Shown in pieces: positions 1,759 to 64,000 of a DNA stretch of 64,000 nucleotides. The notes beneath the pieces were generated by a model. The model ran no database searches, was not told where the DNA came from, and saw only the letters and a program-made list of their open reading frames with translations. Position 1 is the first letter of the stretch; each line of letters opens with the position of its first letter. The stretch comes from Brienomyrus brachyistius (taxonomy: Eukaryota; Chordata; Actinopteri; Osteoglossiformes; Mormyridae). The stretch spans positions 16,998,254 through 17,062,253 of the forward strand of contig NC_064555.1 in the NCBI RefSeq assembly GCF_023856365.1. The letters run 5' to 3'. The translations under genes were made by a program, and so were the position numbers.

Positions 1759-1855
<97 letters not shown>

Positions 1856-2389
1856 CACATCCCAAGTGATACCTGCTGGAGTCCCAGGCAAAGGTAGAAT
1901 ATGCTGTCGGGGCTATACAGCTCTCCACCAGGGCGGCGCACCTCACCGATGAAGTGGCACAGGCCGAAGCTGAGCTCTGTTGTGCTGCACTGTAGCACAT
2001 CCTCCTTCAGCACCGTGGTGCGAACTGGGGGAAGCAGGCAGACACACACACACACGTTTAAACTGAGAGCCACAAACTGGAGCTAAACTCCAGCAGACCA
2101 AGCCATGTAAACGGCATTTTGCATGAATTAAAAAGAGAGGTTGGAAATATGAAATGGAATGAAGAAAAGACTCACTGCCGAATTTGGGCTTCTCCAAGTC
2201 AGGCTGCTGGTTCCTCCATTGGACCCATGCCCTCCAGGCATTAACCCCGTACATGTGCAATAGCTTTGCACCGCCATCAGGTGGCATCGCCTTGCGAGAC
2301 ACATCCGACCCCACCACAGCGGCCGCACGCTTGCGTCCCTGCAGGGCATGGATGAGGACATTCACATACACGTGCCTGTCAGGGACAGA
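591..2389 (-). other. zmym4: DUF3504 (Crypton-recombinase-derived) C-terminal domain of zmym4
   Basis: The last five exons in view (2389-2176, 2024-1873, 1685-1571, 1432-1181, 717-591) encode the region with YGVNAWRAWVQW, LYLCLGLQQYLFENGR, HSRVEEGYLWECKQLG, PIVLLNTLLFF and CPVRLYEFYLSK, which is the conserved C-terminal block of ZMYM2/3/4. The family literature derives this block from the tyrosine recombinase of Crypton DNA transposons. The final stretch, expected to begin with Cys and contain the RNDVFYLQPE-like segment, is missing because it lies beyond the window edge: exon 27 ends in split codon TG at 591 with a GTGAGT donor. Confidence 0.85.
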
Positions 2390-30167: not shown

Positions 30168-30405
30168 CTTATAACTAATTTAAATATAATGTAAAAGCAG
30201 TCTTAAAAGCAAATCGCGAAACGAATACTAGGATCGCAAATCGTGATACGAATATTAGTTACGTGTGTCGGCACAGCCACTCGCCAGTCACCACTGTTAC
30301 TCCACAAAATGGCGGCGAACAGCTCCCTTTGTCTCTTTGCTGGGTAATTTTGTGAACTCCGTCCCCGCCCAAAATCCGTGACGCAGTTTCACTGGCCAAT
30401 AGGAT
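30168..30405 (-). promoter_or_regulatory. sfpq promoter region
   Basis: Immediately upstream of the sfpq ATG the plus strand shows AAAATGGCGGCG (30306-30317), a YY1-type element, and a CCAAT box within GGCCAAT (30394-30400). There is also a GTGACGCAG motif and a CpG-containing GC-rich stretch. This is typical of a TATA-less housekeeping promoter. A second AAAATGGCGG occurs inside intron 1 near 29332. Confidence 0.55.
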
Positions 30406-34500: not shown

Positions 34501-35125
34501 ATGGCGGAGTCCAGAAATTTCGGTACGTCTCTTCTATATGTGTTTTACAGCTGCTGCGGTGTGTGTTACTATGGACATGTGTTACTCTGCTTAATGCCTT
34601 TAGCTGGCATGTTTGTAAGGTTGCAGGTATGGTGATTTTTAAAAAAGGATGAACTTAAATGAACCAGGATTGCAGGGGAGGCGTGTAGCATAAGAGTAGC
34701 TTAGATAAAATGCAAGGCAAACAGATGAGAAATTATAGAAATGGAGAATACAAACACAGAAATGTAGAGCATGGCTATCAAAGAAAGATTATATTAATTA
34801 TTAATTCAGTCTCAAAGTATGTTCCGGAGTGCTGGGCCCATTCCTAACTCCATTTCTTTCCTTGGTGTGAGTGCAGCTCGCGACTTTCTGGAGGCAAACC
34901 GCGAGCGGATCATTTGGGGCGTGCAGGACAGCAGAGCTGTGGCGGAAGCCGCCGCTGCCCAGCGCCTACTCGATGACCGATGGACTGTGGAGGTGCGGTC
35001 TGCTCAGACCCCTCAGGAAGTGATGAGGACGCTGCTGCGCGGCCTGGAGTCAGACACCGCAGCGAAGATGTCAGCTTTCTACCAAATACTCAGACAAATG
35101 GAACCCAGGCTCATTGAACAACTGG
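34501..35125 (+). other. CARD domain encoded by exons 1-2
   Basis: After splicing (exon 1 ends at 34522 before GTACGT, exon 2 starts at 34877 after GTGAGTGCAG) the 90 residues show the CARD layout. Helix 1 has a Leu/Ile pattern (FLEANRERIIWGV), helix 2 is SRAVAEAAAAQRLLD, helix 3 is short (WTVEVRSAQ), helix 4 is PQEVMRTLLRGLE, helix 5 is TAAKMSAFYQILRQ, and helix 6 is PRLIEQL. The Thr-Pro before helix 4 and 'MEPRLIEQL' at the end are typical of ASC/NLRP1/caspase-type CARDs. Intronic sequence upstream of 34877 is not part of the protein. Confidence 0.78.
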
Positions 35126-38100
35126 GTGAGCCGTGTCACTTTTTACAGTGATTCATTAAAAGTGAATATACATTATAAATCATGTTAAGTCACAGTTTCT
35201 TGATTTTGTGACCATGAAGGCATTACTGTGATATTAGACTTGGTTTTATTGGGTCTGTTTTTACATTTGTATTACTTGTCCTGCTGCGCCAATTGCTTTG
35301 CTGAATATACATTTTGAAGGAACTCCGTGTCATTACAGTGATGTTGACATTTTCAGAAACAGGTAGTTCCAAGTTATTATACAGATGCTCCTCTACTTAC
35401 GAACAAGATACGTTACAAATAGCTGGTCGTAGCTTGAAATGTTCGTAAGTCGTCATTCAACATCATTTTAAGGGTATACACAAGTACAATGAACTAGGAT
35501 GCAGGGAGTACGCACGCTACGCCGCTGGGAGTACGCACGCTACGCCGCTGGGAGTACGCACGCTACGCTGCTGCACGGCGGGAGTAGCGGCCAGAAGTCG
35601 TACTGGGCGGAATTGGTGTGCAGAAAAAAACGATGTTGCGGACAGGAAACAGGAGCCCACGAACACAATTTGGACTTACAGTCCTCCTTGTTTATATGTC
35701 TGAAAGTTCGTAATTAGAGGAGCGTCTGTATTTTAAAAATAGAAATTTCCTCATAATTTTGTACGAATGGGGATACTTGGGTTTGTAGAGAGTGTCACAC
35801 ATAAGAAATCTCAAAATAAACTATTACTAAAGATTAAAAATGGCAGTTATTATGCATAAAGTCTCTATGGACTTAACCATTATGTCCACTACTGACAGAG
35901 CAAATGGACAGTGTGAAGGAAGAAATACACACAAAACTGGACCACACGGGTGCAGAGACCAAGCAAGATGTGGACAGAATAGAACATTTAAAGGCTGAGA
36001 TACAATCAAAAAGAGATGCCTTTCAGAAGAGGAAACGGGAGACAATGCAAGCCATAGATGAGATCGAAAAACTCTGGGAGGGAACAAAGAGAGAAAAGGA
36101 TGATATAGAAAACATGAGGGCTAAGATCCAGAAACAAAATAAAGATCTGGGACACATGATGGAAGAGAGGAGGCGACTAGAAGGCATGGTGGATCAGATG
36201 AAGGCTGATATACGGAAGCTGAGGAAAGAGCTAAGGCAAAACCGAGAAGAGATGAGACGTGAGAAGAACTCAACGGAAAAGATGAGAGCTGAACTGCAAA
36301 TGGAGAAGAGCTCCTTGGAGACAAGGAGAGAGGAGATCATGAAGGACAGGGAACAACTACAGCAGATGAGATTTTCAGTACTGAAAGAAAGAGAAGAAAT
36401 TGAACAAGCCCATGAATTTACAAATCAAGAGAAACTCAGGATGGAACAGATGAAAACTAACATTGAAAGACAAATCGAGGAAATAGAGATTCAGAAAGAA
36501 GAGACAAAGGTGGCAAAGGAGAGGATGGAACAGATCAGAACAGAGATACAGACAGAGAGAGACACTCTGGAGAGGACAAGGTCTGAAACAAAAAAACAGA
36601 AAGATCAGTTCGAACAGATCAAGTATGAGATCAATAAAGTCAAAGAAGAAATGGAGAAAAGGTGGTGTGAGACCCAGAATGAAGAACAAGAACAAAGGGC
36701 TGATTTACAAAGGCAAAGAGAGGAGCTGGAGAAAATGGTGGTTGAGTTAAAGAGAGAAAAAGAAGAGGTAAAAAATTATAGAGAAGAGGCAGAGAAAGAG
36801 AAAAGACAGACAGAACAAACGAAAGCAGAGCTACATGCAGACAAATACAGTTTACAGAAGGAAAGACAGGAGATGATCAGAGAAAGGAAGGAGTTGGAAC
36901 AGATGAAAAGTGAGATAGAGAGAGCTAAAGAAAGCATGGAACAAAGCAGGGAGATTACAAACAGGGAGAGAGAGAAGATGGAGAACATGAAGAGTGCGAT
37001 TCAGAGAAAGATGGCGGAGATAGAAGTCAAGATGGAGGAGGCAAAGCAAGCCAAAGACGAGATGGATAAGAGCAGGACAGACATACAGAAAGCAAAAGAC
37101 ATGCTGGAGAAACAAAGACATGAAACAAGACAAGCAAAAGAGGATCTAGAAAGGAGGAGGTATGAGACTCTGAATGAGGAGATGGAGCGGAGAGCAGAAA
37201 TACAGAAAGAAAGGGAAGGGCTGGAGAGGGTCAGATTGGGAATGCAGACAGAAAAAGAAGAAATGGAGAAAGCAATGAATGACATGGAGAAAGAGCTGAA
37301 CCAAATGAGAGAAGAGACAAGGCAAGAGAGGAATAAAGTAGAACAGAAGAAAGCAAAGATGCAAACTGAGAAAGATGTCTTAGAGAGACAAAGAAACGAG
37401 ATGAAAAAGGAGAGAGAAGAGTTAGAAGAGCTTAGGAAGGAGACGTTACAAAGAACAGATGACTTGGAAAAAAGCAGGGAACTGATGCAAAAAGAGAAGG
37501 ACAAGATAGAACAGCTTAAAACTGAGCTACAAGCCCAAATGGCGGAAATAGAAAACAAAATGGAAGATATACAGGTAGCAGAAGAAAACCTGAAACGGAT
37601 GAAGACAGACATTGAACGACAGAAGGATGACTTGGAAAGAAAAGAGAGTAAGGTGAAGAAGGATAAAGAACACTTCGAAAAGATCAAGAATGAGATAAAC
37701 CGACTTAAGGGAGAGATGGAGAAAAGGTGGACTGAGACAGAGAAAGAACATCAAGAACAAAGAGTTCAAATACAACAAGAGAAAGAACAGATAGAAGTAA
37801 TCAGGGCAGAGATACAACGAGAAAAGGAGAAGACAGAATGTGACAGAGAAGAAGCAAAGCAAGAAAAGAGGCAGATTGAACAAATGAAATCTGAACTGCA
37901 TGCAGAAAGAGACGTTCTGGAGAAAGGCAAAGAAGAGACTAAACGAAAGGAAGCAGAACTGGATTGGATTGGTTATGAAATAAAGAAGGCAACCGAAATC
38001 ATGGAGCAGAACAAATTAGTGACAGAGCAGGAAAAACATGAGATGGAGCAGACAAGAGTGGAACTAAAGAAACAAGTGGAAGAGATGGAAAAAAGAAATA

Positions 38101-41100
38101 GGGAGTTGATGCAGAAGAACGCTGAGCTAGAGCAAGCAAAAGCACAGACTCAAAGAGCAAAAGAAGTCTTGCAAGAGCAAATTGATGATTTCCAGCGAAA
38201 AACAGAAGATCTGGAGAGGAGAAGATATGAAATTGTCAAAGAGGAACTGCAGCTGAGAAATGAGATACAAAGGGGCAGACAAGAATTGGACTGGATCATG
38301 GTGGGGATTCAAAGGGCGAAGGAGGAAGCAGATAAACGGAATGATGAGAAAGAAAATGATGAATTAGAAGCTGTGATGAAAACAGGTAGAACTAGCATGA
38401 AGATAACATGGGAAGAATCAAATCTGGAAGAGCTCAAGATCACACAGATAAAAAGCATGATGCGTGCATATAGGGATACCCACGACACGGGAAGAGAGAA
38501 GGAAGAACAGCAGGTCAAATCTGAAATAGAACGAGCACTAGAAGTCATGGGACAAAATAAAAAAGCGATAGAGCAAGAAAGGCAAGAGCTGGAGCACATG
38601 AAAGCAGAGATACAGAGAGAGAACGAAGCAATGTGGAGGAGACGGAAAGAAACATGGGCTGAGATTGAAAAGCTAGAACAGATGAAAAGAGAGGTATTGA
38701 AGTCCAAAGAAGAGATAGGGAAAAGTACAACTGCAATGAAGAAAGAGAAGGACACAATGGAACAGATAAAATCTGAGATAAAAGGACAAATAGAAGAGAT
38801 AGAAAACAAGATTGAAGAAACAAGAAGAGCAAACTACAGGCTGGAACAAATGAAGGATGAGATAGTGAGAGAAAAGGATGAGTTGGAGAGTATAAGAGAT
38901 GTGAAGGACGAAGAACCATTTGAAAAGGTGAAATATGAGCTGCAAAGAATAAAAATTGAGATCGAGAAGCTCTGGGAAGAGACCGAACAGGCGGACTGTG
39001 AACTGAGAGCTAGGTTACAGAAAGAGGAAGAAGAACTGGAGAACAGGGTAGAAAAGATACAGAGGGAAATGTTGGAAATGGAGAAAGTCAAGGCAGAGAT
39101 AAAGAGTCAGACAGAAGAACTTCTGAATAAAAAAGAAAGGAACGAAAGAGAACTGGACGAGATTGAAAAAGCAAAGGCTGAACTAGAGAGGCAGAAAGAA
39201 GAAATTGAAAATAATATAGAAAAGGCAAAGAGCAATGCAGAAATGATGAGGACAGAACTTGAGAGACAGAAAGAAGACATTGAAAAAAGGCTAGAGAAGA
39301 CAAAGAGAGAGCGAGAGGCCATAGAGCAGATGAAAGCTGAGATCCAAAGTCAGAAAGATGAAGTGGAACACAAGTACAAAATGACAAAAAACGAAATGTG
39401 CAAGTTGGAGGAGATGAGGAATGAAATCCAAAGGAGGAGGAGTGAGCTGGAAGAGTGGTTACTGTTGTCATTGACGAACAAGGCGGAAATCGAGCTGCTG
39501 AAGGCGGGACTGCAAAGACAGAGGGTAGAGGTTGAAAGAATGCTGCTAGCAGCAAAGGCAGAAAATGACACGCTAGAGCGACAAAAGGCAGCTATCCACG
39601 GAGAGAGGGAGGAAACTGAAAAAATGAAGGCAGCCATAGAGAGGGAGAAAGATGCACTGGAGCAGATGAAAAATGATCTGAAGAAAGTGAAAGAGGAAAA
39701 TGAAAAGAAAATGGAGAAGATGACGAGTGACATGCGGAGCGTAATGCAGATGAGAACCGAAATAGAAAGCCAAAGCAGTGACATGGAGAAGAGGATCATA
39801 AACACACTGAAAGACAGACAAGAGGTGGAAACAATGAAGGTGGACATAAAAAGACAAAAAGAAGAGCTGGAAATGAAAATCGCTGAAGCAAATAAGGAAA
39901 AGGACAAGATAGACCGGATGAAGATGGAACTGCAGAAAACGCTAGATGAAATGAAAAAAACCAAAGAGGAGGAGAAAAGAATATGGAGATGGGAGGTATG
40001 TATCTGGGAAGACATTGGTCAGATAAAAATGTATATCTATGTTGTCACAATGGTGCTTTCAGGACCCGTGTTCAAATGCCAGTCCAGTCAATTGTCATCC
40101 CCTTTAGCACTCTGGATTAGTGGCCACATGTCAGTACTTCAGCATCCATGTTGTAAGTCAACATTCAGGCCACCCAGGCTAGGCCACGCCCCTTAATTCC
40201 ACCCCCATGGAAAACAGTAATTACTCCAGATGGCTCCACTCTCACCGGTGACTTTACGGAAGTAGAAAATGGCTACTGCCTGAATTTTTGTTCCCCAATG
40301 GCCAAATTCCATCAGAAGCATAATGCTAAGGGCCATCAAAAAATTTGCCAGGCAGGGGTGGGGAGGGTATTCCAATGATAGGCAGCCAGAGTATACAACA
40401 TGGTAGAGTAGTCCAAGAATCTAGCCACAGAGACAGTCTCCATGGCAAAACACATGACAGTTAGCCAATGGGCTAAATCACCAGTGGAACACAGGTCCCA
40501 GAGGCAGCGTGGTGACAATATGGAAAAAATATAATATATCATACACTGCATAGATGTGTGTGTTAAAACTGTTAGAAAAACAAAAACTATAAATGTGTGA
40601 AAACACTTGAAAACATTTCACATTTCAAAATCACAAGGAAATCACGACAATGGCTAAAAAAGAGGAAATAGGCAGGAGGACAGAAGCTGGCAGATACAAG
40701 GGGACTGAGACACAGGGAGAGAAAGAGGGGCCAAGGAAGACGAAGGGGAAGAGGGAAAGACATCTTGGAACATGGGTGATACAAAAAAAGAAACGAAGAG
40801 AGGAAAGGAATGAGGGCAACGTGGATATGAAAGAAAAAACAGAAAAGGACTTGGAAGAAATGAGGGGATCCACAGGTGACTTTGAAAAGATGGAAGAATT
40901 GCACGAAAGGAAAGATGATGTGGACGAATGGACAGAAAGAAGGAAATGGAAAATGGTGGAGCAGGTGAAAGCAGATGTGCAAAAAGAAGAAGTGAAACAC
41001 AATCAGTCCAGGGAAGACAGCATGACAGAGATGCTGACAATGATAGCTAGAAGAAGAGAGATGGAGAATGAGGAGGAGGATGTAGAAAAGGAATTGGAAA

Positions 41101-44100
41101 AAATAAACAGGGAGAAGGATGATATCAAAAAGCTGAAGGCTGCACTACAGAAACAGCAAAAGGAAATGGAGAACTGGATGGAGGAAAGGGAACGGGAGAT
41201 GATTAGGATTAAAGAGATGAGAACTGACCTTGAAAACAAGGAAGAGCACATTGAACAAATGAGAAATGACGTTATGAGTAAAATTAGCAAAATGGCAGCA
41301 ATTGAAGCTGGAAGGGATGGACAGACACAAGGAATAGAAATGCAATGGGATCTGATGAAGCAAGAGAAGGATGTCATTCGTCAGCTGAAAGCTGAGCTGC
41401 AAAAAGAGAAACAGGATATAGAGAAATGGATAGAGGAAAGACGGCGGGAAGGGATCAGTATTGAACAAATTAAAGCTGATATTCAAAATGAGAAACAGAA
41501 AATTGATCAAGCCAGAGATGACACTATGAGGGAGATTAGCAAAATGGAAACCATTAAAGCTGAGATGGATGGTCAGAAGGAAGGAATAAAAGAACAACTA
41601 GAGCAGATTAAGAGAGAAAAAGAGGATATTGAAGAAAGTAAGGCTGAGCTGCAGAAGAAGAATGAGGAATTGGAGAAATGGATACAAGAGTGGCAACAAG
41701 AGAAAGTCTTGACTGACGAACTAAAAGCAAACCTTGAAAAAGAGAAAGACAAAATTGATGAAACACTGGAAAGGGAAAGGGAGGTAATGGAAAAGCAATT
41801 GGAGCAGATGAAAAGGGAGAAAGAAGATATGGAAAAATGGAAGGTTAAGCTACGGAAAGAGAAAGGAAAAAAGGGGCGACAGAAAGAACAAATGAAAGAA
41901 CGACTGGACCAGATTATGAGGGAGGAAGACGATATTGAGAAAATAAAGGCTGAGTTACAGAAGCAAAAATTGGACATGGACAACTGGATACAAGAGAGGC
42001 AGCAAGAAAAAGACTTGATTGAACAGATGAAAACAGACCTTCAAAATGAGAAAGAAACATTTGATAAAGTAAGAAAAGAAACAAAACTTTTGGAATTCAA
42101 ATTGGAACAGATACAGCAGGAAAAGGACGATATTGAGCAACAAAAGTGTGAGATACAGAGACAGAGAGAGGAAATGGAAAACTGGATACAGGAAAGACAG
42201 CAGGAGATGACTAGGATTGAACAAATGAAAGAGGATATTGAAAATGAGAAAGAAAAAATTGATCAAGCCAGAGGTGATGTAATGAGGGAGACTGTCAAAA
42301 TGGAAGCCATTAAAGCAGAGATGGATGAACAGAAAAGAGAGATGGAGAAGGAACTGGACAATATTAAAAGGGAGAAAGATGAAATTGATCAAATGAAGTT
42401 GCAGCTTCAGAAACAAAAAATGGACATAGACAACTGGATAGAAAAGAGGCAGGAGGAAAAAGACAAGATCGAACAGCTGGCAACAGACCTTCAAAAGGAG
42501 ACAGAAACATCTGATCAAATAAGAGAAGAAACAAAACTTAAACAACTAAAACTGGAACAGATACAGCAGGAAAAGGACGATATTGAGCAACAAAAGCGTG
42601 AGATACAGAAACAGAGAGAGGAAATGGAAAACTGGATACAGGAAAGACAGCAGGAGATGACTAGGATTAAACAAATGAAAGAGGATCTTGAAAATGAGAA
42701 AGAAAAAATTGATCAAGCCAGAGGTGATGTAATGAGGGAGACTGTCAAAATGGAAGCCATTAAAGCAGAGATGGATGAACAGGAAAGAGAGATGGAGAAG
42801 GAACTGGACAATATTAAAAGGGAGAAAGATGAAATTGATCAAATGAAGTTGCAGCTTCAGAAACAAAAAATGGACATAGACAACTGGATAGAAGAGAGGC
42901 AGCAAGAGAAAGACTTGATTGAAGAAATTAAAGCAAACCTTCAAAAACAAAAAGGGAAAATTGATCAAACTCGAGAAGATAACTTAAGAGAAGCCAGAAA
43001 AATTGCAGATATCAAAGTTGAGTTGGACAGCGAAAAGGAAATAATGGAATATCGAATGGACCAGATTAAGAGGGAGAAAGATGATATGAAAGAATTGAAG
43101 GTTATGCTACAGAAAGAGAAAGAAGAAATGGAACGACAAAAAGAACAAATGGAAGAGCAATTAGGCCAGATTAAGAGGGAGAAAGAGCACATTGAGCAAA
43201 TAAAGGCTGAGCTACAGAAGCAAAAATTGAACATTGACAACTGGATACAAGAGAGGCAGCAAGAACTGATCAGAATTGAACAAATGAAAGAGGATCTTGA
43301 AAAAAAGAAAGAGAACATTGATCAAGCCAGAGATGCCACAGTGCAGGAGATCAGCAAAATGGAAGCCATGAAAGTGGACATGGATGGACAGAAAGAAATA
43401 ATGGAAAGGCAATGGGAAGAGATGAAGCAGGAGAAAGATGTGATTGATCAACTGACGGCAGAGCTAGGGAAACAGAAAGAGGACATGAACAACTGGACAG
43501 AGGAAATAGAGAAAGAGGTGATGAGGATTGAAGAAATGAAAGCTGATATTCAAAACAAGAAAGAGAAAATTGATCGAGACAGAGGTGATGTAATGAGGGA
43601 GATTCTCAAAATGGAAGCTGTTAAAGCTGAGATGGATGGACAGAAAAGAGAAATGGAGAAGGAACTGGACAATATTAAAAGGGAGAAAGATGAAATTGAT
43701 CAAATGAAGTTGCAGCTTCACAAACAAAAAATGGACATAGACAACTGGATAGAAAAGAGGCAGGAGGAAAAAGACAAGATCGAACAGCTGGCAACAGACC
43801 TTCAAAAGGAGACAGAAACATCTGATCAAATAAGAGAAGAAACAAAACTTAAACAACTAAAACTGGAACAGATACAGCAGGAAAAGGACGATATTGAGCA
43901 ACAAAAGCGTGAGATACAGAAACAGAGAGAGGAAATGGAAAACTGGATACAGGAAAGACAGCAGGAGATGACTAGGATTAAACAAATGAAAGAGGATCTT
44001 GAAAATGAGAAAGAAAAAATTGATCAAGCCAGAGGTGATGTAATGAGGGAGACTGTCAAAATGGAAGCCATTAAAGCAGAGATGGATGAACAGGAAAGAG

Positions 44101-47100
44101 AGATGGAGAAGGAACTGGACAATATTAAAAGGGAGAAAGATGAAATTGATCAAATGAAGTTGCAGCTTCAGAAACAAAAAATGGACATAGACAACTGGAT
44201 AGAAGAGAGGCAGCAAGAGAAAGACTTGATTGAAGAAATTAAAGCAAACCTTCAAAAAGAAAAAGGGAAAATTGATCAAACTCGAGAAGATAACTTAAGA
44301 GAAGCCAGAAAAATTGCAGATATCAAAGTTGAGTTGGACAGCGAAAAGGAAATAATGGAAAATCGAATGGACCAGATTAAGAGGGAGAAAGATGATATGA
44401 AAGAATTGAAGGTTATGCTACAGAAAGAGAAAGAAGAAATGGAACGACAAAAAGAACAAATGGAAGAGCAATTAGGCCAGATTAAGAGGGAGAAAGAGCA
44501 CATTGAGCAAATAAAGGCTGAGCTACAGAAGCAAAAATTGAACATTGACAACTGGATACAAGAGAGGCAGCAAGAACTGATCAGAATTGAACAAATGAAA
44601 GAGGATCTTGAAAAAAAGAAAGAGAACATTGATCAAGCCAGAGATGCCACAGTGCAGGAGATCAGCAAAATGGAAGCCATGAAAGTGGACATGGATGGAC
44701 AGAAAGAAATAATGGAAAGGCAATGGGAAGAGATGAAGCAGGAGAAAGATGTGATTGATCAACTGACGGCAGAGCTAGGGAAACAGAAAGAGGACATGAA
44801 CAACTGGACAGAGGAAATAGAGAAAGAGGTGATGAGGATTGAAGAAATGAAAGCTGATATTCAAAACAAGAAAGAGAAAATTGATCGAGACAGAGGTGAT
44901 GTAATGAGGGAGATTCTCAAAATGGAAGCTGTTAAAGCTGAGATGGATGGACAGAAAGGAGAAATGGAGAAGGAACTGGACAATATTAAAAGGGAGAAAG
45001 ATGAAATTGATCAAATGAAGTTGCAGCTTCACAAACAAAAAATGGACATAGACAACTGGATAGAAAAGAGGCAGGAGGAAAAAGACAAGATCGAACAGCT
45101 GGCAACAGACCTTCAAAAGGAGACAGAAACATCTGATCAAATAACAGAAGAAACAAAACTTAAACAACTAAAACTGGAACAGATACAGCAGGAAAAGGAC
45201 GATATTGAGCAACAAAAGTGTGAGATACAGAAACAGAGAGAGGAAATGGAAAACTGGATACAGGAAAGACAGCAGGAGATGACTAGGATTGAACAATTGA
45301 AAGAGGATCTTGAAAATGAGAAAGACAAAATTGATCAAGCCAGAGGTGATGTAATGAGGGAGACTGTCAAAATGGAAGCCATTAAAGCAGAGATGGATGA
45401 ACAGAAAAGAGAAATGGAGAAGGAACTGGACAATATTAAAAGGGAGAAAGATGAAATTGATCAAATGAAGTTGCAGCTTCAGAAACAAAAAATGGACATA
45501 GACAACTGGATAGAAGAGAGGCAGCAAGAGAAAGACTTGATTGAAGAAATTAAAGCAAACCTTCAAAAAGAAAAAGAGAAAATTGATCAAACTCGAGAAG
45601 ATAATTTAAGAGAAGCCAGAAAAATTGCAGATATCAAAGGTGAGTTGGACGGGGAAAAGGAAGTAATGGAAAATCAAATGGACCAAATTAAGAGGGAGAA
45701 AGATGATATGAAAGAATTGAAGGTTAAGCTACAGAAAGAGAAAGAAGAAATGGAACGACAAAAAGAACAAATGGAAGAGCAATTAGGCCAGATTAAGAGG
45801 GAGAAAGATGATATGAAAGAATTGAAGGATAAGCTACAGAAAGAGAAAGAAGAAATGGAACGACAAAAAGAACAAATGGAAGAGCAATTAGGCCAGATTA
45901 AGAGGGAGAAAGAGGAAATTGAGAAAATAAAGGCTGAGCTACAGAAGCAAAAATTGAACATTGACAACTGGATACAAGAGAGGCAGCAAGAACTGATCAG
46001 TATTGAACAAATGAAAGAGGATCTTGAAAAAAAGAAAGAGAACATTGATCAAGCCAGAGATGCTGCAGTGCAGGAGATCAGCAAAATGGAAGCCATGAAA
46101 GTGGACATGGATGGACAGAAAGAAATAATGGAAAGGCAATGGGAAGAGATGAAGCAGGAGAAAGATGTGATTGATCAACTGACAGCTGAGCTAGGGAAAC
46201 AGAAAGAGGACATGAACAACTGGACAGAGGAAATAGAGAAAGAGGTGATGAGGATTGAAGAAATGAAAGCTGATATTCAAAACAAGAAAGAGAAAATTGA
46301 TCGAGACAGAGGTGATGTAATGAGGGAGATTCTCAAAATGGAAGCTGTTAAAGCTGAGATGGATGGACAGAAAAGAGAGATGGAGAAGGAACTGGACAAT
46401 ATTAAAAGGGAGAAAGGTGAAATTGATCAAATGAAGTTGCAGCTTCACAAACAAAAAATGGACATAGACAACTGGATAGAAAAGAGGCAGGAGGAAAAAG
46501 ACAAGATCGAACAGCTGGCAACAGACCTTCAAAAGGAGAAAGAAACATCTGATCAAATAAGAGAAGAAACAAAACTTAAACAACTAAAACTGGAACAGAT
46601 ACAGCAGGAAAAGGACGATATTGAGCAACAAAAGCGTGAGATACAGAAACAGAGAGAGGAAATGGAAAACTGGATACAGGAAAGACAGCAGGAGATGACT
46701 AGGATTGAACAATTGAAAGAGGATCTTGAAAATGAGAAAGAAAAAATTGATCAAGCCAGAGGTGATGTAATGAGGGAGACTGTCAAAATGGAAGCCATTA
46801 AAGCAGAGATGGATGAACAGAAAAGAGAAATGGAGAAGGAACTGGACAATATTAAAAGAGAGAAAGATGAAATTGATCAAATGAAGTTGCAGCTTCAGAA
46901 ACAAAAAATGGACATAGACAACTGGATAGAAGAGAGGCAGCAAGAGAAAGACTTGATTGAAGAAATTAAAGCAAACCTTCAAAAAGAAAAAGAGAAAATT
47001 GATCAAACTCGAGAAGATAATTTAAGAGAAGCCAGAAAAATTGCAGATATCAAAGGTGAGTTGGACGGGGAAAAGGAAGTAATGGAAAATCAAATGGACC

Positions 47101-53100: not shown

Positions 53101-56100
53101 AAATGGAAGCTGTTAAAGCTGAGATGGATGGACAGAAAAGAGAAATGGAGAAGGAACTGGACAATATTAAAAGGGAGAAAGATGAAATTGATCAAATGAA
53201 GTTGCAGCTTCACAAACAAAAAATGGACATAGACAACTGGATAGAAAAGAGGCAGGAGGAAAAAGACAAGATCGAACAGCTGGCAACAGACCTTCAAAAG
53301 GAGACAGAAACATCTGATCAAATAAGAGAAGAAACAAAACTTAAACAACTAAAACTGGAACAGATACAGCAGGAAAAGGACGATATTGAGCAACAAAAGT
53401 GTGAGATACAGAGACAGAGAGAGGAAATGGAAAACTGGATACAGGAAAGACAGCAGGAGAGGACTAGGATTGAACAAATGAAAGAGGATCTTGAAAATGA
53501 GAAAGACAAAATTGATCAAGCCAGAGGTGATGTAATGAGGGAGACTGTCAAAATGGAAGCCATTAAAGCAGAGATGGATGAACAGAAAAGAGAGATGGAG
53601 AAGGAACTGGACAATATTAAAAGGGAGAAAGATGAAATTGATCAAATGAAGTTGAAGCTTCAGAAACAAAAAATGGACACAGACAATTGGATAGAAGAGA
53701 GGCAGCAAGAGAAAGACTTGATTGAAGAAATTAAAGCAAACCTTCAAAAAGAAAAAGAGAAAATTGATCAAACTCGAGAAGATAATTTAAGAGAAGCCAG
53801 AAAAATTGCAGATGGCAAAGTTGAGTTGGACGGGGAAAAGGAAGTAATGGAAAAGCAATTGGAGCAGACTAAGAGGGAGAAGGATGATATGAAAGAATTG
53901 AAGGTTAAGCTACAGAAAGAGAAAGAAGAAATGGAACGACAAAAAGAACAAATGGAAGAGCAATTAGGCCAGATTAAGAGGGAGAAAGAGGAAATTGAGC
54001 AAATAAAGGCTGAACTACAGAAGCAAAAATTGAACATTGACAACTGGATACAAGAGAGGCAGCAAGAACTGATCAGTATTGAACAAGTAAAAGAGGATCT
54101 TGAAAAAAAGAAAGAGAACATTGATCAAGCCAGAGATGCTGCAGTGCAGGAGATCAGCAAAATGGAAGCCATGAAAGTGGACATGGATGGACAGAAAGAA
54201 ACACTGGAAAGGCAATGGGAAGAGATGAAGCAGGAGAAAGATGTGATTGATCAACTGAAAGCTGAACTAGGGAAACAGAAAGAGGACATGAACAACTGGA
54301 CAGAGGAAATGGAGAAAGAGGTGATGAGGATTGAAGAAATGAAAGCTGATATTCAAAACAAGAAAGAGAAAATTGATCGAGACAGAGGTGATGTAATGAG
54401 GGAGATTCTCAAAATGGAAGCTGTTAAAGCTGAGATGGATGGACAGAAAAGAGAAATGGAGAAGGAACTGGACAATATTAAAAGGGAGAAAGATGAAATT
54501 GATCAAATCAAGTTGCAGCTTCAGAAACAAAAAATGGACATAGACAACTGGATAGAAAAGAGGCAGGAGGAAAAAGACAAGATCGAACAGCTGGCAACAG
54601 ACCTTCAAAAGGAGACAGAAACATCTGATCAAATAAGAGAAGAAACAAAACTTAAACAACTAAAACTGGAACAGATACAGCAGGAAAAGGACGATATTGA
54701 GCAACAAAAGTGTGAGATACAGAAACAGAGAGAGGAAATGGAAAACTGGATACAGGAAAGACAGCAGGAGAGGACTAGGATTGAACAAATGAAAGAGGAT
54801 CTTGAAAATGAGAAAGACAAAATTGATCAAGCCAGAGGTGATGTAATGAGGGAGACTGTCAAAATGGAAGCCATTAAAGCAGAGATGGATGAACAGAAAA
54901 GAGAGATGGAGAAGGAACTGGACAATATTAAAAGGGAGAAAGATGAAATTGATCAAATGAAGTTGCAGCTTCAGAAACAAAAAATGGACATAGACAACTG
55001 GATAGAAGAGAGGCAGCAAGAGAAAGACAAGATTGAAGAAATTAAAGCAAACCTTCAAAAAGAAAAAGAGAAAATTAATCAAACTCGAGAAGATAATTTA
55101 AGAGAAGCCAGAAAAATTGCAGATATTAAAGTTGAGTTGGACGGGGAAATGGAAGTAATGGAAAATCGAATGGACCAGATTAAGAGGGAGAAAGATGATA
55201 TGAAAGAATTGAAGGTTAAGCTACAGAAAGAGAAAGAAGAAATGGAACGACAAAAAGAACAAATGGAAGAGCAATTAGGCCAGATTAAGAGGGAGAAAGA
55301 GGAAATTGAGCAAATAAAGGCTGAGCTACAGAAGCAAAAATTGAACATTGACAACTGGATACAAGAGAGGCAGCAAGAACTGATCAGTATTGAACAAGTA
55401 AAAGAGGATCTTGAAAAAAAGAAAGAGAACATTGATCAAGCCAGAGATGCTGCAGTGCAGGAGATCAGCAAAATGGAAGCCATGAAAGTGGACATGGATG
55501 GACAGAAAGAAAGACTGGAAAGGCAATGGGAAGAGATGAAGCAGGAGAAAGATGTGATTGATCAACTGACAGCTGAGCTAGGGAAACAGAAAGAGGACAT
55601 GAACAACTGGACAGAGGAAATGGAGAAAGAGGTGATGAGGATTGAAGAAATGAAAGCTGATATTCAAAACAAGAAAGAGAAAATTGATCGAGACAGAGGT
55701 GATGTAATGAGGGAGATTCTCAAAATGGAAGCTGTTAAAGCTGAGATGGATGGACAGAAAAGAGAAATGGAGAAGGAACTGGACAATATTAAAAGGGAGA
55801 AAGATGAAATTGATCAAATCAAGTTGCAGCTTCAGAAACAAAAAATGGACATAGACAACTGGATAGAAAAGAGGCAGGAGGAAAAAGACAAGATCGAACA
55901 GCTGGCAACAGACCTTCAAAAGGAGACAGAAACATCTGATCAAATAAGAGAAGAAACAAAACTTAAACAACTAAAACTGGAACAGATACAGCAGGAAAAG
56001 GACGATATTGAGCAACAAAAGTGTGAGATACAGAAACAGAGAGAGGAAATGGAAAACTGGATACAGGAAAGACAGCAGGAGAGGACTAGGATTGAACAAA

Positions 56101-59100
56101 TGAAAGAGGATCTTGAAAATGAGAAAGACAAAATTGATCAAGCCAGAGGTGATGTAATGAGGGAGACTGTCAAAATGGAAGCCATTAAAGCAGAGATGGA
56201 TGAACAGAAAAGAGAGATGGAGAAGGAACTGGACAATATTAAAAAGGAGAAAGATGAAATTGATCAAATGAAGTTGCAGCTTCAGAAACAAAAAATGGAC
56301 ATAGACAACTGGATAGAAGAGAGGCAGCAAGAGAAAGACAAGATTGAAGAAATTAAAGCAAACCTTCAAAAAGAAAAAGAGAAAATTAATCAAACTCGAG
56401 AAGATAATTTAAGAGAAGCCAGAAAAATTGCAGATATTAAAGTTGAGTTGGACGGGGAAATGGAAGTAATGGAAAATCGAATGGACCAGATTAAGAGGGA
56501 GAAAGATGATATGAAAGAATTGAAGGTTAAGCTACAGAAAGAGAAAGAAGAAATGGAACGACAAAAAGAACAAATGGAAGAGCAATTAGGCCAGATTAAG
56601 AGGGAGAAAGAGGAAATTGAGCAAATAAAGGCTGAGCTACAGAAGCAAAAATTGAACATTGACAACTGGATACAAGAGAGGCAGCAAGAACTGATCAGTA
56701 TTGAACAAGTAAAAGAGGATCTTGAAAAAAAGAAAGAGAACATTGATCAAGCCAGAGATGCTGCAGTGCAGGAGATCAGCAAAATGGAAGCCATGAAAGT
56801 GGACATGGATGGACAGAAAGAAAGACTGGAAAGGCAATGGGAAGAGATGAAGCAGGAGAAAGATGTGATTGATCAACTGACAGCTGAGCTAGGGAAACAG
56901 AAAGAGGACATGAACAACTGGACAGAGGAAATAGAGAAAGAGGTGATGAGGATTGAAGAAATGAAAGCTGATATTCAAAACAAGAAAGAGAAAATTGATC
57001 GAGACAGAGGTGATGTAATGAGGGAGATTCTCAAAATGGAAGCTGTTAAAGCTGAGATGGATGGACAGAAAAGAGAAATGGAGAAGGAACTGGACAATAT
57101 TAAAAGGGAGAAAGATGAAATTGATCAAATCAAGTTGCAGCTTCAGAAACAAAAAATGGACATAGACAACTGGATAGAAAAGAGGCAGGAGGAAAAAGAC
57201 AAGATCGAACAGCTGGCAACAGACCTTCAAAAGGAGAAAGAAACATCTGATCAAATAAGAGAAGAAACAAAACTTAAACAACTAAAACTGGAACAGATAC
57301 AGCAGGAAAAGGACGATATTGAGCAACAAAAGTATGAGATACAGAAACAGAGAGAGGAAATGGAAAACTGGATACAGGAAAGACAGCAGGAGAGGACTAG
57401 GATTGAACAAATGAAAGAGGATCTTGAAAATGAGAAAGACAAAATTGATCAAGCCAGAGGTGATGTAATGAGGGAGACTGTCAAAATGGAAGCCATTAAA
57501 GCAGAGATGGATGAACAGAAAAGAGAGATGGAGAAGGAACTGGACAATATTAAAAGGGAGAAAGATGAAATTGATCAAATGAAGTTGAAGCTTCAGAAAC
57601 AAAAAATGGACACAGACAATTGGATAGAAGAGAGGCAGCAAGAGAAAGACTTGATTGAAGAAATTAAAGCAAACCTTCAAAAAGAAAAAGAGAAAATTGA
57701 TAAAACTCGAGAAGATAATTTAACAGAAGCCAGAAAAATTGCAGATGGCAAAGTTGAGTTGGACGGGGAAAAGGAAGTAATGGAAAAGCAATTGGAGCAG
57801 ACTAAGAGGGAGAAGGATGATATGAAAGAATTGAAGGTTAAGCTACAGAAAGAGAAAGAAGAAATGGAACGACAAAAAGAACAAATGGAAGAGCAATTAG
57901 GCCAGATTAAGAGGGAGAAAGAGGAAATTGAGCAAATAAAGGCTGAGCTACAGAAGCAAAAATTGAACATTGACAACTGGATACAAGAGAGGCAGCAAGA
58001 ACTGATCAGTATTGAACAAATAAAAGAGGATCTTGAAAAAAAGAAAGAGAACATTGATCAAGCCAGAGATGCTGCAGTGCAGGAGATCAGCAAAATGGAA
58101 GCCATGAAAGTGGACATGGATGGACAGAAAGAAAGACTGGAAAGGCAATGGGAAGAGATGAAGCAGGAGAAAGATGTGATTGATCAACTGACAGCTGAAC
58201 TAGGGAAACAGAAAGAGGACATGAACAACTGGACAGAGGAAATGGAGAAAGAGGTGATGAGGATTGAAGAAATGAAAGCTGATATTCAAAACAAGAAAGA
58301 GAAAATTGATCGAGACAGAGGTGATGTAATGAGGGAGATTCTCAAAATGGAAGCTGTTAAAGCTGAGATGGATGGACAGAAAAGAGAAATGGAGAAGGAA
58401 CTGGACAATATTAAAAGGGAGAAAGATGAAATTGATCAAATCAAGTTGCAGCTTCAGAAACAAAAAATGGACATAGACAACTGGATAGAAAAGAGGCAGG
58501 AGGAAAAAGACAAGATCGAACAGCTGGCAACAGCCCTTCAAAAGGAGAAAGAAACATCTGATCAAATAAGAGAAGAAACAAAACTTAAACAACTAAAACT
58601 GGAACAGATACAGCAGGAAAAGGACGATATTGAGCAACAAAAGTGTGAGATACAGAAACAGAGAGAGGAAATGGAAAACTGGATACAGGAAAGACAGCAG
58701 GAGAGGACTAGGATTGAACAAATGAAAGAGGATCTTGAAAATGAGAAAGACAAAATTGATCAAGCCAGAGGTGATGTAATGAGGGAGACTGTCAAAATGG
58801 AAGCCATTAAAGCAGAGATGGATGAACAGAAAAGAGAGATGGAGAAGGAACTGGACAATATTAAAAGGGAGAAAGATGAAATTGATCAAATGAAGTTGAA
58901 GCTTCAGAAACAAAAAATGGACACAGACAATTGGATAGAAGAGAGGCAGCAAGAGAAAGACTTGATTGAAGAAATTAAAGCAAACCTTCAAAAAGAAAAA
59001 GAGAAAATTGATCAAACTCGAGAAGATAATTTAAGAGAAGCCAGAAAAATTGCAGATGGCAAAGTTGAGCTGGACGGGGAAAAGGAAGTAATGGAAAAGC

Positions 59101-62100
59101 AATTGGAGCAGACTAAGAGGGAGAAGGATGATATGAAAGAATTGAAGGTTAAGCTACAGAAAGAGAAAGAAGAAATGGAACGAGAAAAAGAACAAATGGA
59201 AGAGCAATTAGGCCAGATTAAGAGGGAGAAAGAGGAAATTGAGCAAATAAAGGCTGAGCTACAGAAGCAAAAATTGAACATTGACAACTGGATAAAAGAG
59301 AGGCAGCAAGAACTGATCAGTATTGAACAAGTAAAAGAGGATCTTGAAAAAAAGAAAGAGAACATTGATCAAGCCAGAGATGCTGCAGTGCAGGAGATCA
59401 GCAAAATGGAAGCCATGAAAGTGGACATGGATGGACAGAAAGAAAGACTGGAAAGGCAATGGGAAGAGATGAAGCAGGAGAAAGATGTGATTGATCAACT
59501 GACAGCTGAACTAGGGAAACAGAAAGAGGACATGAACAACTGGACAGAGGAAATGGAGAAAGAGGTGATGAGGATTGAAGAAATGAAAGCTGATATTCAA
59601 AACAAGAAAGAGAAAATTGATCGAGACAGAGGTGATGTAATGAGGGAGATTCTCAAAATGGAAGCTGTTAAAGCTGAGATGGATGGACAGAAAAGAGAAA
59701 TGGAGAAGGAACTGGACAATATTAAAAGGGAGAAAGATGAAATTGATCAAATCAAGTTGCAGCTTCAGAAACAAAAAATGGACATAGACAACTGGATAGA
59801 AAAGAGGCAGGAGGAAAAAGACAAGATCGAACAGCTGGCAACAGACCTTCAAAAGGAGAAAGAAACATCTGATCAAATAAGAGAAGAAACAAAACTTAAA
59901 CAACTAAAACTGGAACAGATACAGCAGGAAAAGGACGATATTGAGCAACAAAAGTGTGAGATACAGAAACAGAGAGAGGAAATGGAAAACTGGATACAGG
60001 AAAGACAGCAGGAGAGGACTAGGATTGAACAAATGAAAGAGGATCTTGAAAATGAGAAAGACAAAATTGATCAAGCCAGAGGTGATGTAATGAGGGAGAC
60101 TGTCAAAATGGAAGCCATTAAAGCAGAGATGGATGAACAGAAAAGAGAGATGGAGAAGGAACTGGACAATATTAAAAGGGAGAAAGATGAAATTGATCAA
60201 ATGAAGTTGAAGCTTCAGAAACAAAAAATGGACACAGACAATTGGATAGAAGAGAGGCAGCAAGAGAAAGACTTGATTGAAGAAATTAAAGCAAACCTTC
60301 AAAAAGAAAAAGAGAAAATTGATCAAACTCGAGAAGATAATTTAAGAGAAGCCAGAAAAATTGCAGATGGCAAAGTTGAGTTGGACGGGGAAAAGGAAGT
60401 AATGGAAAAGCAATTGGAGCAGACTAAGAGGGAGAAGGATGATATGAAAGAATTGAAGGTTAAGCTACAGAAAGAGAAAGAAGAAATGGAACGACAAAAA
60501 GAACAAATGGAAGAGCAATTAGGCCAGATTAAGAGGGAGAAAGAGGAAATTGAGCAAATAAAGGCTGAGCTACAGAAGCAAAAATTGAACATTGACAACT
60601 GGATACAAGAGAGGCAGCAAGAACTGATCAGTATTGAACAAGTAAAAGAGGATCTTGAAAAAAAGAAAGAGAACATTGATCAAGCCAGAGATGCTGCAGT
60701 GCAGGAGATCAGCAAAATGGAAGCCATGAAAGTGGACATGGATGGACAGAAAGAAAGACTGGAAAGGCAATGGGAAGAGATGAAGCAGGAGAAAGATGTG
60801 ATTGATCAACTGACAGCTGAACTAGGGAAACAGAAAGAGGACATGAACAACTGGACAGAGGAAATGGAGAAAGAGGTGATGAGGATTGAAGAAATGAAAG
60901 CTGATATTCAAAACAAGAAAGAGAAAATTGATCGAGACAGAGGTGATGTAATGAGGGAGATTCTCAAAATGGAAGCTGTTAAAGCTGAGATGGATGGACA
61001 GAAAAGAGAAATGGAGAAGGAACTGGACAATATTAAAAGGGAGAAAGATGAAATTGATCAAATCAAGTTGCAGCTTCAGAAACAAAAAATGGACATAGAC
61101 AACTGGATAGAAAAGAGGCAGGAGGAAAAAGACAAGATCGAACAGCTGGCAACAGCCCTTCAAAAGGAGAAAGAAACATCTGATCAAATAAGAGAAGAAA
61201 CAAAACTTAAACAACTAAAACTGGAACAGATACAGCAGGAAAAGGACGATATTGAGCAACAAAAGTGTGAGATACAGAAACAGAGAGAGGAAATGGAAAA
61301 CTGGATACAGGAAAGACAGCAGGAGAGGACTAGGATTGAACAAATGAAAGAGGATCTTGAAAATGAGAAAGACAAAATTGATCAAGCCAGAGGTGATGTA
61401 ATGAGGGAGACTGTCAAAATGGAAGCCATTAAAGCAGAGATGGATGAACAGAAAAGAGAGATGGAGAAGGAACTGGACAATATTAAAAGGGAGAAAGATG
61501 AAATTGATCAAATGAAGTTGAAGCTTCAGAAACAAAAAATGGACACAGACAATTGGATAGAAGAGAGGCAGCAAGAGAAAGACTTGATTGAAGAAATTAA
61601 AGCAAACCTTCAAAAAGAAAAAGAGAAAATTGATCAAACTCGAGAAGATAATTTAAGAGAAGCCAGAAAAATTGCAGATGGCAAAGTTGAGTTGGACGGG
61701 GAAAAGGAAGTAATGGAAAAGCAATTGGAGCAGACTAAGAGGGAGAAGGATGATATGAAAGAATTGAAGGTTAAGCTACAGAAAGAGAAAGAAGAAATGG
61801 AACGACAAAAAGAACAAATGGAAGAGCAATTAGGCCAGATTAAGAGGGAGAAAGAGGAAATTGAGAAAATAAAGGCTGAGCTACAGAAGCAAAAATTGAA
61901 CATTGACAACTGGATACAAGAGAGGCAGCAAGAACTGATCAGTATTGAACAAATAAAAGAGGATCTTGAAAAAAAGAAAGAGAACATTGATCAAGCCAGA
62001 GATGCTGCAGTGCAGGAGATCAGCAAAATGGAAGCCATGAAAGTGGACATGGATGGACAGAAAGAAAGACTGGAAAGGCAATGGGAAGAGATGAAGCAGG

Positions 62101-64000
62101 AGAAAGATGTGATTGATCAACTGACAGCTGAACTAGGGAAACAGAAAGAGGACATGAACAACTGGACAGAGGAAATGGAGAAAGAGGTGATGAGGATTGA
62201 AGAAATGAAAGCTGATATTCAAAACAAGAAAGAGAAAATTGATCGAGACAGAGGTGATGTAATGAGGGAGATTCTCAAAATGGAAGCTGTTAAAGCTGAG
62301 ATGGATGGACAGAAAAGAGAAATGGAGAAGGAACTGGACAATATTAAAAGGGAGAAAGATGAAATTGATCAAATCAAGTTGCAGCTTCAGAAACAAAAAA
62401 TGGACATAGACAACTGGATAGAAAAGAGGCAGGAGGAAAAAGACAAGATCGAACAGCTGGCAACAGCCCTTCAAAAGGAGAAAGAAACATCTGATCAAAT
62501 AAGAGAAGAAACAAAACTTAAACAACTAAAACTGGAACAGATACAGCAGGAAAAGGACGATATTGAGCAACAAAAGTGTGAGATACAGAAACAGAGAGAG
62601 GAAATGGAAAACTGGATACAGGAAAGACAGCAGGAGAGGACTAGGATTGAACAAATGAAAGAGGATCTTGAAAATGAGAAAGACAAAATTGATCAAGCCA
62701 GAGGTGATGTAATGAGGGAGACTGTCAAAATGGAAGCCATTAAAGCAGAGATGGATGAACAGAAAAGAGAGATGGAGAAGGAACTGGACAATATTAAAAG
62801 GGAGAAAGATGAAATTGATCAAATGAAGTTGAAGCTTCAGAAACAAAAAATGGACACAGACAATTGGATAGAAGAGAGGCAGCAAGAGAAAGACTTGATT
62901 GAAGAAATTAAAGCAAACCTTCAAAAAGAAAAAGAGAAAATTGATCAAACTCGAGAAGATAATTTAAGAGAAGCCAGAAAAATTGCAGATGGCAAAGTTG
63001 AGTTGGACGGGGAAAAGGAAGTAATGGAAAAGCAATTGGAGCAGACTAAGAGGGAGAAGGATGATATGAAAGAATTGAAGGTTAAGCTACAGAAAGAAAA
63101 AGAAGAAATGGAACGACAAAAAGAACAAATGGAAGAGCAATTAGGCCAGATTAAGAGGGAGAAAGAGGAAATTGAGCAAATAAAGGCTGAGCTACAGAAG
63201 CAAAAATTGAACATTGACAACTGGATACAAGAGAGGCAGCAAGAACTGATCAGTATTGAACAAGTAAAAGAGGATCTTGAAAAAAAGAAAGAGAACATTG
63301 ATCAAGCCAGAGATGCTGCAGTGCAGGAGATCAGCAAAATGGAAGCCATGAAAGTGGACATGGATGGACAGAAAGAAAGACTGGAAAGGCAATGGGAAGA
63401 GATGAAGCAGGAGAAAGATGTGATTGATCAACTGACAGCTGAACTAGGGAAACAGAAAGAGGACATGAACAACTGGACAGAGGAAATGGAGAAAGAGGTG
63501 ATGAGGATTGAAGAAATGAAAGCTGATATTCAAAACAAGAAAGAGAAAATTGATCGAGACAGAGGTGATGTAATGAGGGAGATTCTCAAAATGGAAGCTG
63601 TTAAAGCTGAGATGGATGGACAGAAAAGAGAAATGGAGAAGGAACTGGACAATATTAAAAGGGAGAAAGATGAAATTGATCAAATCAAGTTGCAGCTTCA
63701 GAAACAAAAAATGGACATAGACAACTGGATAGAAAAGAGGCAGGAGGAAAAAGACAAGATCGAACAGCTGGCAACAGCCCTTCAAAAGGAGAAAGAAACA
63801 TCTGATCAAATAAGAGAAGAAACAAAACTTAAACAACTAAAACTGGAACAGATACAGCAGGAAAAGGACGATATTGAGCAACAAAAGTGTGAGATACAGA
63901 AACAGAGAGAGGAAATGGAAAACTGGATACAGGAAAGACAGCAGGAGAGGACTAGGATTGAACAAATGAAAGAGGATCCTGAAAATGAGAAAGACAAAAT
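34501..64000 (+). CDS. CARD-domain giant coiled-coil repeat protein (3' end off window)
   Basis: I do not recognise a named orthologue. Exon 1 is 34501-34522 (ATG then MAESRNF), exon 2 is 34877-35125 and exon 3 is 35899-39995; GT/AG sites and phases (1, 1, 0) all agree. Residues 8-90 form a CARD-like six-helix death fold: RDFLEANRERIIWGV, then PQEVMRTLLRGLES, then AFYQILRQMEPRLIEQL. Exon 3 is 1365 codons of charged Glu/Lys/Arg/Gln/Met coiled coil with diverged long repeats (EKRW and ERRRYE motifs recurring). The next open frame, same phase, runs from 40612 to the window end; an AG at 40637 gives a phase-0 join, or the ATG at 40650 could start a separate gene. No stop interrupts it for 23 kb. 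If spliced, over 9,200 residues are visible. CARDs recruit partners by homotypic contact, so a scaffold or filament in inflammasome-like or CARMA-like signalling is plausible but inferred. Automatic pipelines would probably label it golgin- or trichohyalin-like. Confidence 0.82.
35382..35728. mobile_element. Tc1/mariner-like MITE in intron 2 of the CARD gene
   Basis: The 347-bp element has terminal inverted repeats of 23 bp: it opens CAGATGCTCCTCTACTTACG and closes CGTAATTAGAGGAGCGTCTG, with two mismatches. It is flanked on both sides by TA, the target duplication of the Tc1/mariner superfamily. It encodes no transposase and contains a 23-bp minisatellite. Confidence 0.82.
35504..35572. repeat. 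23-bp minisatellite, three units
   Basis: The unit GGGAGTACGCACGCTACG plus CCGCT is repeated three times head to tail; the third differs by one base. It lies wholly inside the MITE at 35382-35728, so it probably arose within that element. Confidence 0.92.
39996..40637 (+). other. Probable intron between exon 3 and the giant repeat exon
   Basis: The donor AG|GTATGT at 39996 is good. In-frame stops occur at 40194-40196 and again at 40591 and 40609, so the two open frames must be joined by splicing if they belong to one gene. The 3' end is unusual because the AG at 40636-40637 lacks a pyrimidine tract. The segment itself shows no coding signal. Confidence 0.55.
40650..42095 (+). CDS. Diverged coiled-coil segment leading into the repeat array (part of the CARD gene)
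   Basis: This frame opens at 40612 and contains an ATG at 40650 with a favourable context (ACAATGG). The first 80 codons are basic and low in coiled-coil character (TKGKRERHLG region). From about 41100 the sequence becomes regular coiled coil. Tryptophan motifs appear at 41175, 41427, 41679 and 41985, spaced 84, 84 and 102 codons, so the 84-residue periodicity is already present before the homogenised array. It is probably internal to the CARD gene; a separate gene starting here is the alternative. Confidence 0.75.
42096..42545 (+). repeat. Truncated 150-codon repeat unit at the head of the array
   Basis: This 450-bp piece equals the first 114 or so codons of the 437-codon unit fused directly to its last 36 or so. 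The missing 287 codons lie exactly between two copies of the MDIDNWIE motif. It sits immediately before the first full unit, in frame. It is either an ancestral short form or the product of recombination between the internal motifs. Confidence 0.85.
42546..64000 (+). repeat. In-frame tandem array of 1,311-bp (437-codon) coding units
   Basis: Unit starts: 42546, 43857, 45168, 46584, 47895, 49311, 50622, 51933, 53349, 54660, 55971, 57282, 58593, 59904, 61215, 62526, and a partial at 63837. Thirteen complete units are 1,311 bp; three (from 45168, 47895 and 51933) are 1,416 bp because a 105-bp, 35-codon block is duplicated. All stay in frame. Within a unit, tryptophans of NWIxERQ-type motifs fall at residues 30, 114, 233, 317 and 401, giving spacings of 84, 119, 84, 84 and 66. 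The units are nearly identical in DNA. The coding strand is overwhelmingly purine. The protein would be a continuous alpha-helical rod. Copy number depends on correct assembly. Confidence 0.96.

Follow-up and report, generated by a model that had tools for sequence, protein, structure and literature searches.

A candidate giant gene joining an inflammasome-type CARD to a tandem-repeat coiled-coil rod in Brienomyrus brachyistius

In proteins of the GBP, NLRP1 and ASC type, the CARD is located at the C-terminus of a GTPase, an NLR or an adaptor. CARD9 and the CARMA proteins (CARD10, 11 and 14) begin with a CARD, which is followed by a coiled coil, and are about 500 to 1,150 residues long. In golgins such as giantin, a coiled-coil rod of great length ends in a C-terminus directed to membranes, and no CARD is present. 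The AIG1 GTPase family is tied to immunity. For zebrafish Gbp4, the original report places the CARD at the C-terminus and describes entry of the protein into Asc specks via this domain, with an effect that needs Asc (PMC4932187). Zebrafish NLRP1 likewise needs ASC for recruiting its caspases, according to a review (PMC9978379), and snail proteins combining a CARD-type death domain (DD-CARD), AIG1 and a coiled coil are already described (PMC7053062). A literature search retrieved no recognised description of a giant coiled coil headed by a CARD.

The window analysed here is a stretch of 64,000 nucleotides of the B. brachyistius genome (RefSeq assembly GCF_023856365.1, contig NC_064555.1, positions 16,998,254 to 17,062,253). 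A CARD, long open frames, heptads, an array of repeat units and a distinct tail are read directly from this sequence and its continuation. We infer from them a four-exon gene whose conceptual product, if translated as modelled, would comprise 14,361 residues (1.753 MDa, pI 4.9).

Exons 1 to 3 and the type of the CARD

Exon 1 (34501..34522, plus strand) consists of seven codons including a start codon with A at -3 and G at +4 and ends in phase 1 before GTACGT. Exon 2 (34877..35125, plus strand) encodes the CARD (protein residues about 8-91) and also ends in phase 1, before GTGAGC; the intron behind it contains a 23-base tandem repeat (35504-35573, three copies, 97% match). Exon 3 (35899..39995, plus strand) encodes a 1,365-residue coiled coil and has a phase-0 end before GTATGT. 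Joined in phases 1, 1 and 0, the three exons give 1,456 codons without a single stop. The sequence-only reading, in which the splice phases carry the CARD into a coil of more than 1,360 residues, was thereby confirmed, and exons 1 and 2 are almost certainly joined to exon 3.

A CARD had been recognised in exons 1 and 2 from the letters alone, and this held at the level of both sequence and fold. In a phmmer search of residues 8-90 against the PDB sequences, the zebrafish structure 4irl was matched with an E-value of 3e-9, followed only by NLRP1 (0.99) and zebrafish ASC (1.2). The profile search proposed as a check gave a divided result: the Pfam CARD family (PF00619) was matched (E 2e-4), but with 21.7 bits the score lies below the cut-off of 23.9, and exon 2 alone reached 19.5 bits. 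AlphaFold2 predictions for exon 2 alone from the single sequence yielded a best model with a pLDDT of 91.6, while the others scored 69.4, 61.2, 57.1 and 53.3. The best of the five models has helices at 2-6, 8-14, 18-27, 33-41, 45-57, 61-74 and 76-80 and displays the six-helix death fold with a kinked first helix. A Foldseek search with this model returned 89 matches at E <= 10 and none at E <= 0.001, the top match being again 4irl (E 1.1e-3, TM 0.86), with a probability to CARDs of 1.00.

With a profile built from ten CARDs of the genome (nine others and that of the giant gene), the nearest PDB matches belonged to the same ASC/NLRP1/GBP subgroup. The CARD of the giant gene is nearest to the zebrafish GBP/NLRP1-like, NLRP1, CARD8 and ASC CARDs and is a member of this subgroup. 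The earlier choice of CARD9/CARMA for comparison thus pointed to the wrong family; membership in it was dropped on the CARD subgroup, and none of these proteins is named among the 44 profile matches or the best 50 of the 89 Foldseek matches.

The giant exon, its rod and its tail

Behind exon 3, an open frame extends from 40611 to 63998 (7,796 codons within the window) and, traced in this assembly beyond the window, runs for 12,914 codons without a stop. The stop was found at window-coordinate 79353-79355 (L010:5353-5355), downstream of which four AATAAA signals are located (79467-79562), the first about 110 bases after the stop. The giant coiled-coil exon, proposed as exon 4 (40638..64000 in the window, plus strand, running on outside it), comprises 12,905 residues in 38,715 bases as modelled. 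A chance open frame was ruled out, because stops number 578 and 725 in the two remaining forward frames of 40611-63998 and because the giant frame has a hydrophobic period of 3.496. The initial estimate of at least 7,780 further coil residues in the window agreed with the 7,787 codons counted there after the proposed acceptor, but underestimated the size, since the frame reaches 79352; the join to exon 3 is our proposal.

Proposed intron 3 (39996..40637, plus strand, 642 bases) ends with the acceptor CACAAG, and its upstream sequence has 60% pyrimidines. Fifteen in-phase AGs were listed for 39996-40900, and in the 20 bases upstream the pyrimidine fraction is highest for the AG that ends at 40637 (0.60; next 0.45). 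Training on exon 3 and 41501-43000 gave a codon score that mainly tracks composition; at the donor GTATGT (39996) it drops from +17.7 to -3.9, and it is positive again just past the in-phase acceptor ending at 40637. A wrong frame outscores the right one over the opening 120 bases of exon 4 and in some windows of exon 3, so that the score marks the borders of A-/G-rich, coding-like sequence and not the frame.

Exon 3 contains a 28-residue repeat and a diverged repeat with a spacing of about 355 residues. Compared with the exon 4 module, the ten best windows of exon 3 summed were matched by none of 300 heptad-preserving shuffles, and the single best window by 10 of 300; this test used an uncorrected position-specific score and supported exon 3 only. 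A composition-corrected HMM search (HMMER) for the exon 4 module in exon 3 found no similarity, 88 of 200 shuffles being as good.

The phase match, the coding-like borders, the absence of poly(A) signals between the exons and the shared 28-residue module all argue for the join, and exons 3 and 4 probably form one continuous protein. Our confidence in this was lowered slightly because, where exon 4 begins, the codon score gives no preference to the right frame. The locus might instead encode two proteins, one with the CARD and the 1,365-residue coil (exons 1 to 3) and a separate giant rod initiated at the ATG of 40650..40652 (plus strand), or two promoters might give rise to both forms. This start codon lies 12 bases past the proposed acceptor in a good context (A at -3, G at +4), the acceptor is modest with its pyrimidine content, the heptads are weak exactly at the exon 3/4 junction and the corrected search detected no exon 3 module. 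Such a separation is nevertheless rather unlikely given that a good phase-0 donor ends exon 3 and an in-phase acceptor opens the giant frame, that neither AATAAA nor ATTAAA occurs in the 642 bases in between (39996-40637), and that exon 3 has the module in the uncorrected test.

For the single protein that we prefer, sustained heptads and few helix breakers describe a coiled-coil rod. Only 13 prolines occur in 14,361 residues, and the interval from 1097 to 13512 contains just five of these. In exon 3 the hydrophobic period is 3.514. The exon 4 value of 3.496 equals 437/125, and the 437-residue units therefore keep the heptad phase. The tandem-repeat coiled-coil rod described in the sequence-only reading was thus recovered. 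Apolar residues occupy on average 61% of the a/d positions, and 21 of 503 windows fall below 50% (56-residue windows, with the best register picked for each). The longest run of weak heptads, at about residues 1437-1604, coincides with the exon 3/4 junction and contains the weakest heptads of the rod. With a coiled-coil helix rise of 0.1485 nm per residue, the approximately 13,900 rod residues would, if helical throughout, reach a length of up to about 2 micrometres, in accordance with the 'well over a micrometre' expected beforehand.

The last 45 residues have a net charge of +3 and six cysteines (14340, 14343, 14344, 14346, 14347 and 14348), a composition that suggests a membrane end. No other match to the last 149 residues was obtained in the same genome at E <= 0.1, and no Pfam family matched them at E <= 1. 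Furthermore, no Pfam match to PDZ, SH3 or GUK was found in exon 3, 40635-45002 or the last 149 residues, and neither AIG1 nor any enzymatic or sensor domain was detected in those parts of the giant gene that were scanned.

The unit array and its evolution

The array (43170..64000, plus strand, extending beyond the window) is composed of units of 1,311 bases (437 residues), some of which measure 1,416 bases. A nine-residue anchor occurs in 25 copies, with 24 intervals of 437 (20), 472 (3) and 724 residues (one). The 23 units of 437 or 472 residues are 96.7-100% identical at the DNA level and contain shorter repeats of 450, 252 and 105 bases. A 30-base repeat word (<=2 mismatches) has at least 56 matches in the 985 Mb genome, all 56 of which lie in this locus.

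The number of units rests on the assembly and might be inflated or wrong, leaving a true rod that is much shorter, as the copy number of units this similar is easily mis-assembled. We regard this as unlikely, since the 164 kb examined contain no N, the units differ in patches, three of them bear an extra 105-base block and both ends of the array grade into diverged coil. Moreover, the CARD-plus-coil architecture would stand even with one unit.

Recent unit copies differ almost neutrally, yet carry no stops. For the 15 units that lie in the window, pooled pN/pS was 0.64. Comparison of the 20 437-residue units revealed 66 distinct codon variants, 60 of them single-base changes: 45 non-synonymous, 15 synonymous and no stop. 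The same base-change spectrum would predict 43.8, 13.1 and 3.1, respectively (P of zero stops 0.03). The near-neutral differences count against the preferred single-gene explanation and the absence of stops counts for it. In older repeats selected at the DNA level, the third codon position differs most, for which the skewed codon composition may be responsible in part: differences at the three codon positions amounted to 0.329, 0.307 and 0.459 for exon 3 against itself (25 alignments) and to 0.264, 0.192 and 0.373 for one unit against itself (five alignments). Values of pN/pS in windows chosen by protein identity (lags 150, 287 and 355) are biased by this choice and were not counted as evidence.

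Relatives in the genome and in databases

The Pfam CARD model gave 38 matches in the whole genome, among which neither the giant-gene CARD nor its nearest relative is found. A direct genome search with the giant-gene CARD returned only itself and C4:1300517-1300756 (28% identity, E 0.008). In a comparison of thirty CARDs (29 of the 38 Pfam matches and this relative on contig C4), the relative scored 25.7 bits, followed by the C4 cluster near 2.0 Mb with up to 12.7 bits. This cluster (C4:1980107-2115545, five loci) and a second one (C25:6609912-6668008, four loci) consist of ASC/NLRP1-like CARD exons and are probably local expansions. Two further CARD exons, on a large and a small contig (C9:24650202-24650453 and C81:248765-249016), have an identical translation and may represent a recent duplicate or an unmerged haplotype.

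As read by eye, the relative (G000:C4:1294660-1300756, minus strand) opens with a short exon, and its CARD exon (L040 1501-1740) has phase-1 borders like that of the giant gene. Downstream, a coil-rich exon (L041 5783-6142) is followed by an AIG1/GIMAP GTPase exon (L041 3660-5051, E 1.1e-40) that continues into coil. The CARD, coil and AIG1 exons are likely to form one CARD-coil-GTPase immune gene, and the locus offers an ancestry for the giant gene. Neither comparison of its coil with the giant rod supported a similarity (17 of 300 shuffles as good without and 129 of 200 with composition correction). A filter for coil-like frames beside the other CARDs missed the relative's own coil in L041, and its negatives carry little weight.

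The AIG1 exon next to the nearest relative, from an immunity-tied family, and the inflammasome subgroup of the CARD also bear on a further explanation, in which the gene is real and the rod structural, as an epithelial, ciliary or egg-coat filament like trichohyalin or the giant cytolinkers, with the CARD as a mere oligomerising head and no immune signalling. Both observations speak against this explanation, which we consider unlikely, even though the coiled coil makes up nearly the whole protein and the scanned parts are free of enzymatic or sensor domains.

The protein databases were searched within set length ranges. Of 748 candidates for a CARD-bearing protein between about 800 and 2,550 residues long, none reached E <= 0.01; of 7,982 candidates between about 730 and 2,320 residues long, scored with a segment of the repeat, none reached E <= 1e-10. 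Neither range extends to very long relatives, such as a full-length one. As a control, an SFPQ stretch of the window retrieved 95 of 381 candidates at E <= 1e-30, including fish proteins; vertebrate proteins are hence covered by the searched set. The SFPQ gene adjoins the giant gene (window 26500-30200, minus strand) and is matched better by SFPQ structures than by those of PSPC1 or NONO. Further upstream (window 1-13000, minus strand), frames resemble by eye a ZMYM zinc-finger gene, and two adjacent elongation factor 1-alpha-like stretches, possibly a tandem duplicate, were noticed by eye on the minus strand at about window-coordinates 127800-135000.

A possible CARD-presenting tether and its comparison with known systems

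The explanation that we favour, tentatively and as a possible one, is a four-exon gene whose product of about 14,361 residues would act as a membrane-anchored, dimeric, CARD-presenting tether. The protein would be laid out with an N-terminal ASC/NLRP1/GBP-type CARD, a coiled-coil rod and a C-terminal basic tail with clustered cysteines. The rod, of about 13,900 residues, is probably a parallel dimer, in which the coil is weak at a joint near residues 1437-1604. The tail, probably S-acylated, would fix the rod to a membrane in the manner of golgin-type tethers. At the opposite end, the rod would show paired CARDs that might recruit ASC or another CARD protein. By analogy with the dependence of zebrafish Gbp4 and NLRP1 on ASC, a CARD pair at the end of the rod could recruit ASC. 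Such recruitment would seed a death-fold assembly, or position one, far away from the membrane and yet attached to it. The number of 437-residue units could be altered by unequal exchange, adjusting the reach with both ends unchanged.

Taken to its full extent, this would be a polypeptide of about 14,400 residues, encoded mostly by one 38.7 kb exon and forming a tether of about 2 micrometres with an inflammasome-type CARD and a lipid-modified membrane tip, in which the unit number sets the reach of a death-fold nucleator and whose ancestor was a CARD-coil-GTPase immune gene; in this complete form the proposal is doubtful. If translated as modelled, the product would rank with the largest vertebrate proteins, and its 38.7 kb coding exon would be unusually long (human MUC16 has a coding exon of about 22 kb). 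If the explanation is true, a cell-scale rod that probably ends at a membrane would carry an inflammasome-type domain and constitute a molecular tether of a new kind, and the question whether a death-fold assembly can be positioned over micrometres by a protein tether becomes directly testable. The near-identical units additionally provide a natural case for measuring the change of protein length by tandem exchange.

Compared with known systems, the CARDs of 4irl, NLRP1, ASC and CARD8 have the fold and the sequence subgroup in common with that of the giant gene. In contrast to GBP, NLRP1 and ASC, the CARD of the giant gene is located at the N-terminus of a giant rod, and no GTPase, NLR or adaptor domain was found. 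CARD9/CARMA proteins share the N-terminal CARD and the coil with the giant gene but have a different type of CARD, and the C-terminal PDZ-SH3-GUK of the CARMA members is absent from its scanned parts. Golgins including giantin, which resemble the proposed protein in a very long rod and, presumably, in a membrane-directed C-terminus, are several times shorter, have a different anchor and lack a CARD. The CARD-coil-AIG1 locus on C4 resembles the giant gene in the phase-1 borders of its CARD and in the coil-rich sequence following on the same strand, whereas it differs by the AIG1 GTPase, short coils, the lack of a giant array and a CARD identity of only 28%. Relative to the published snail proteins with CARD, AIG1 and coil, the giant rod is the new element.
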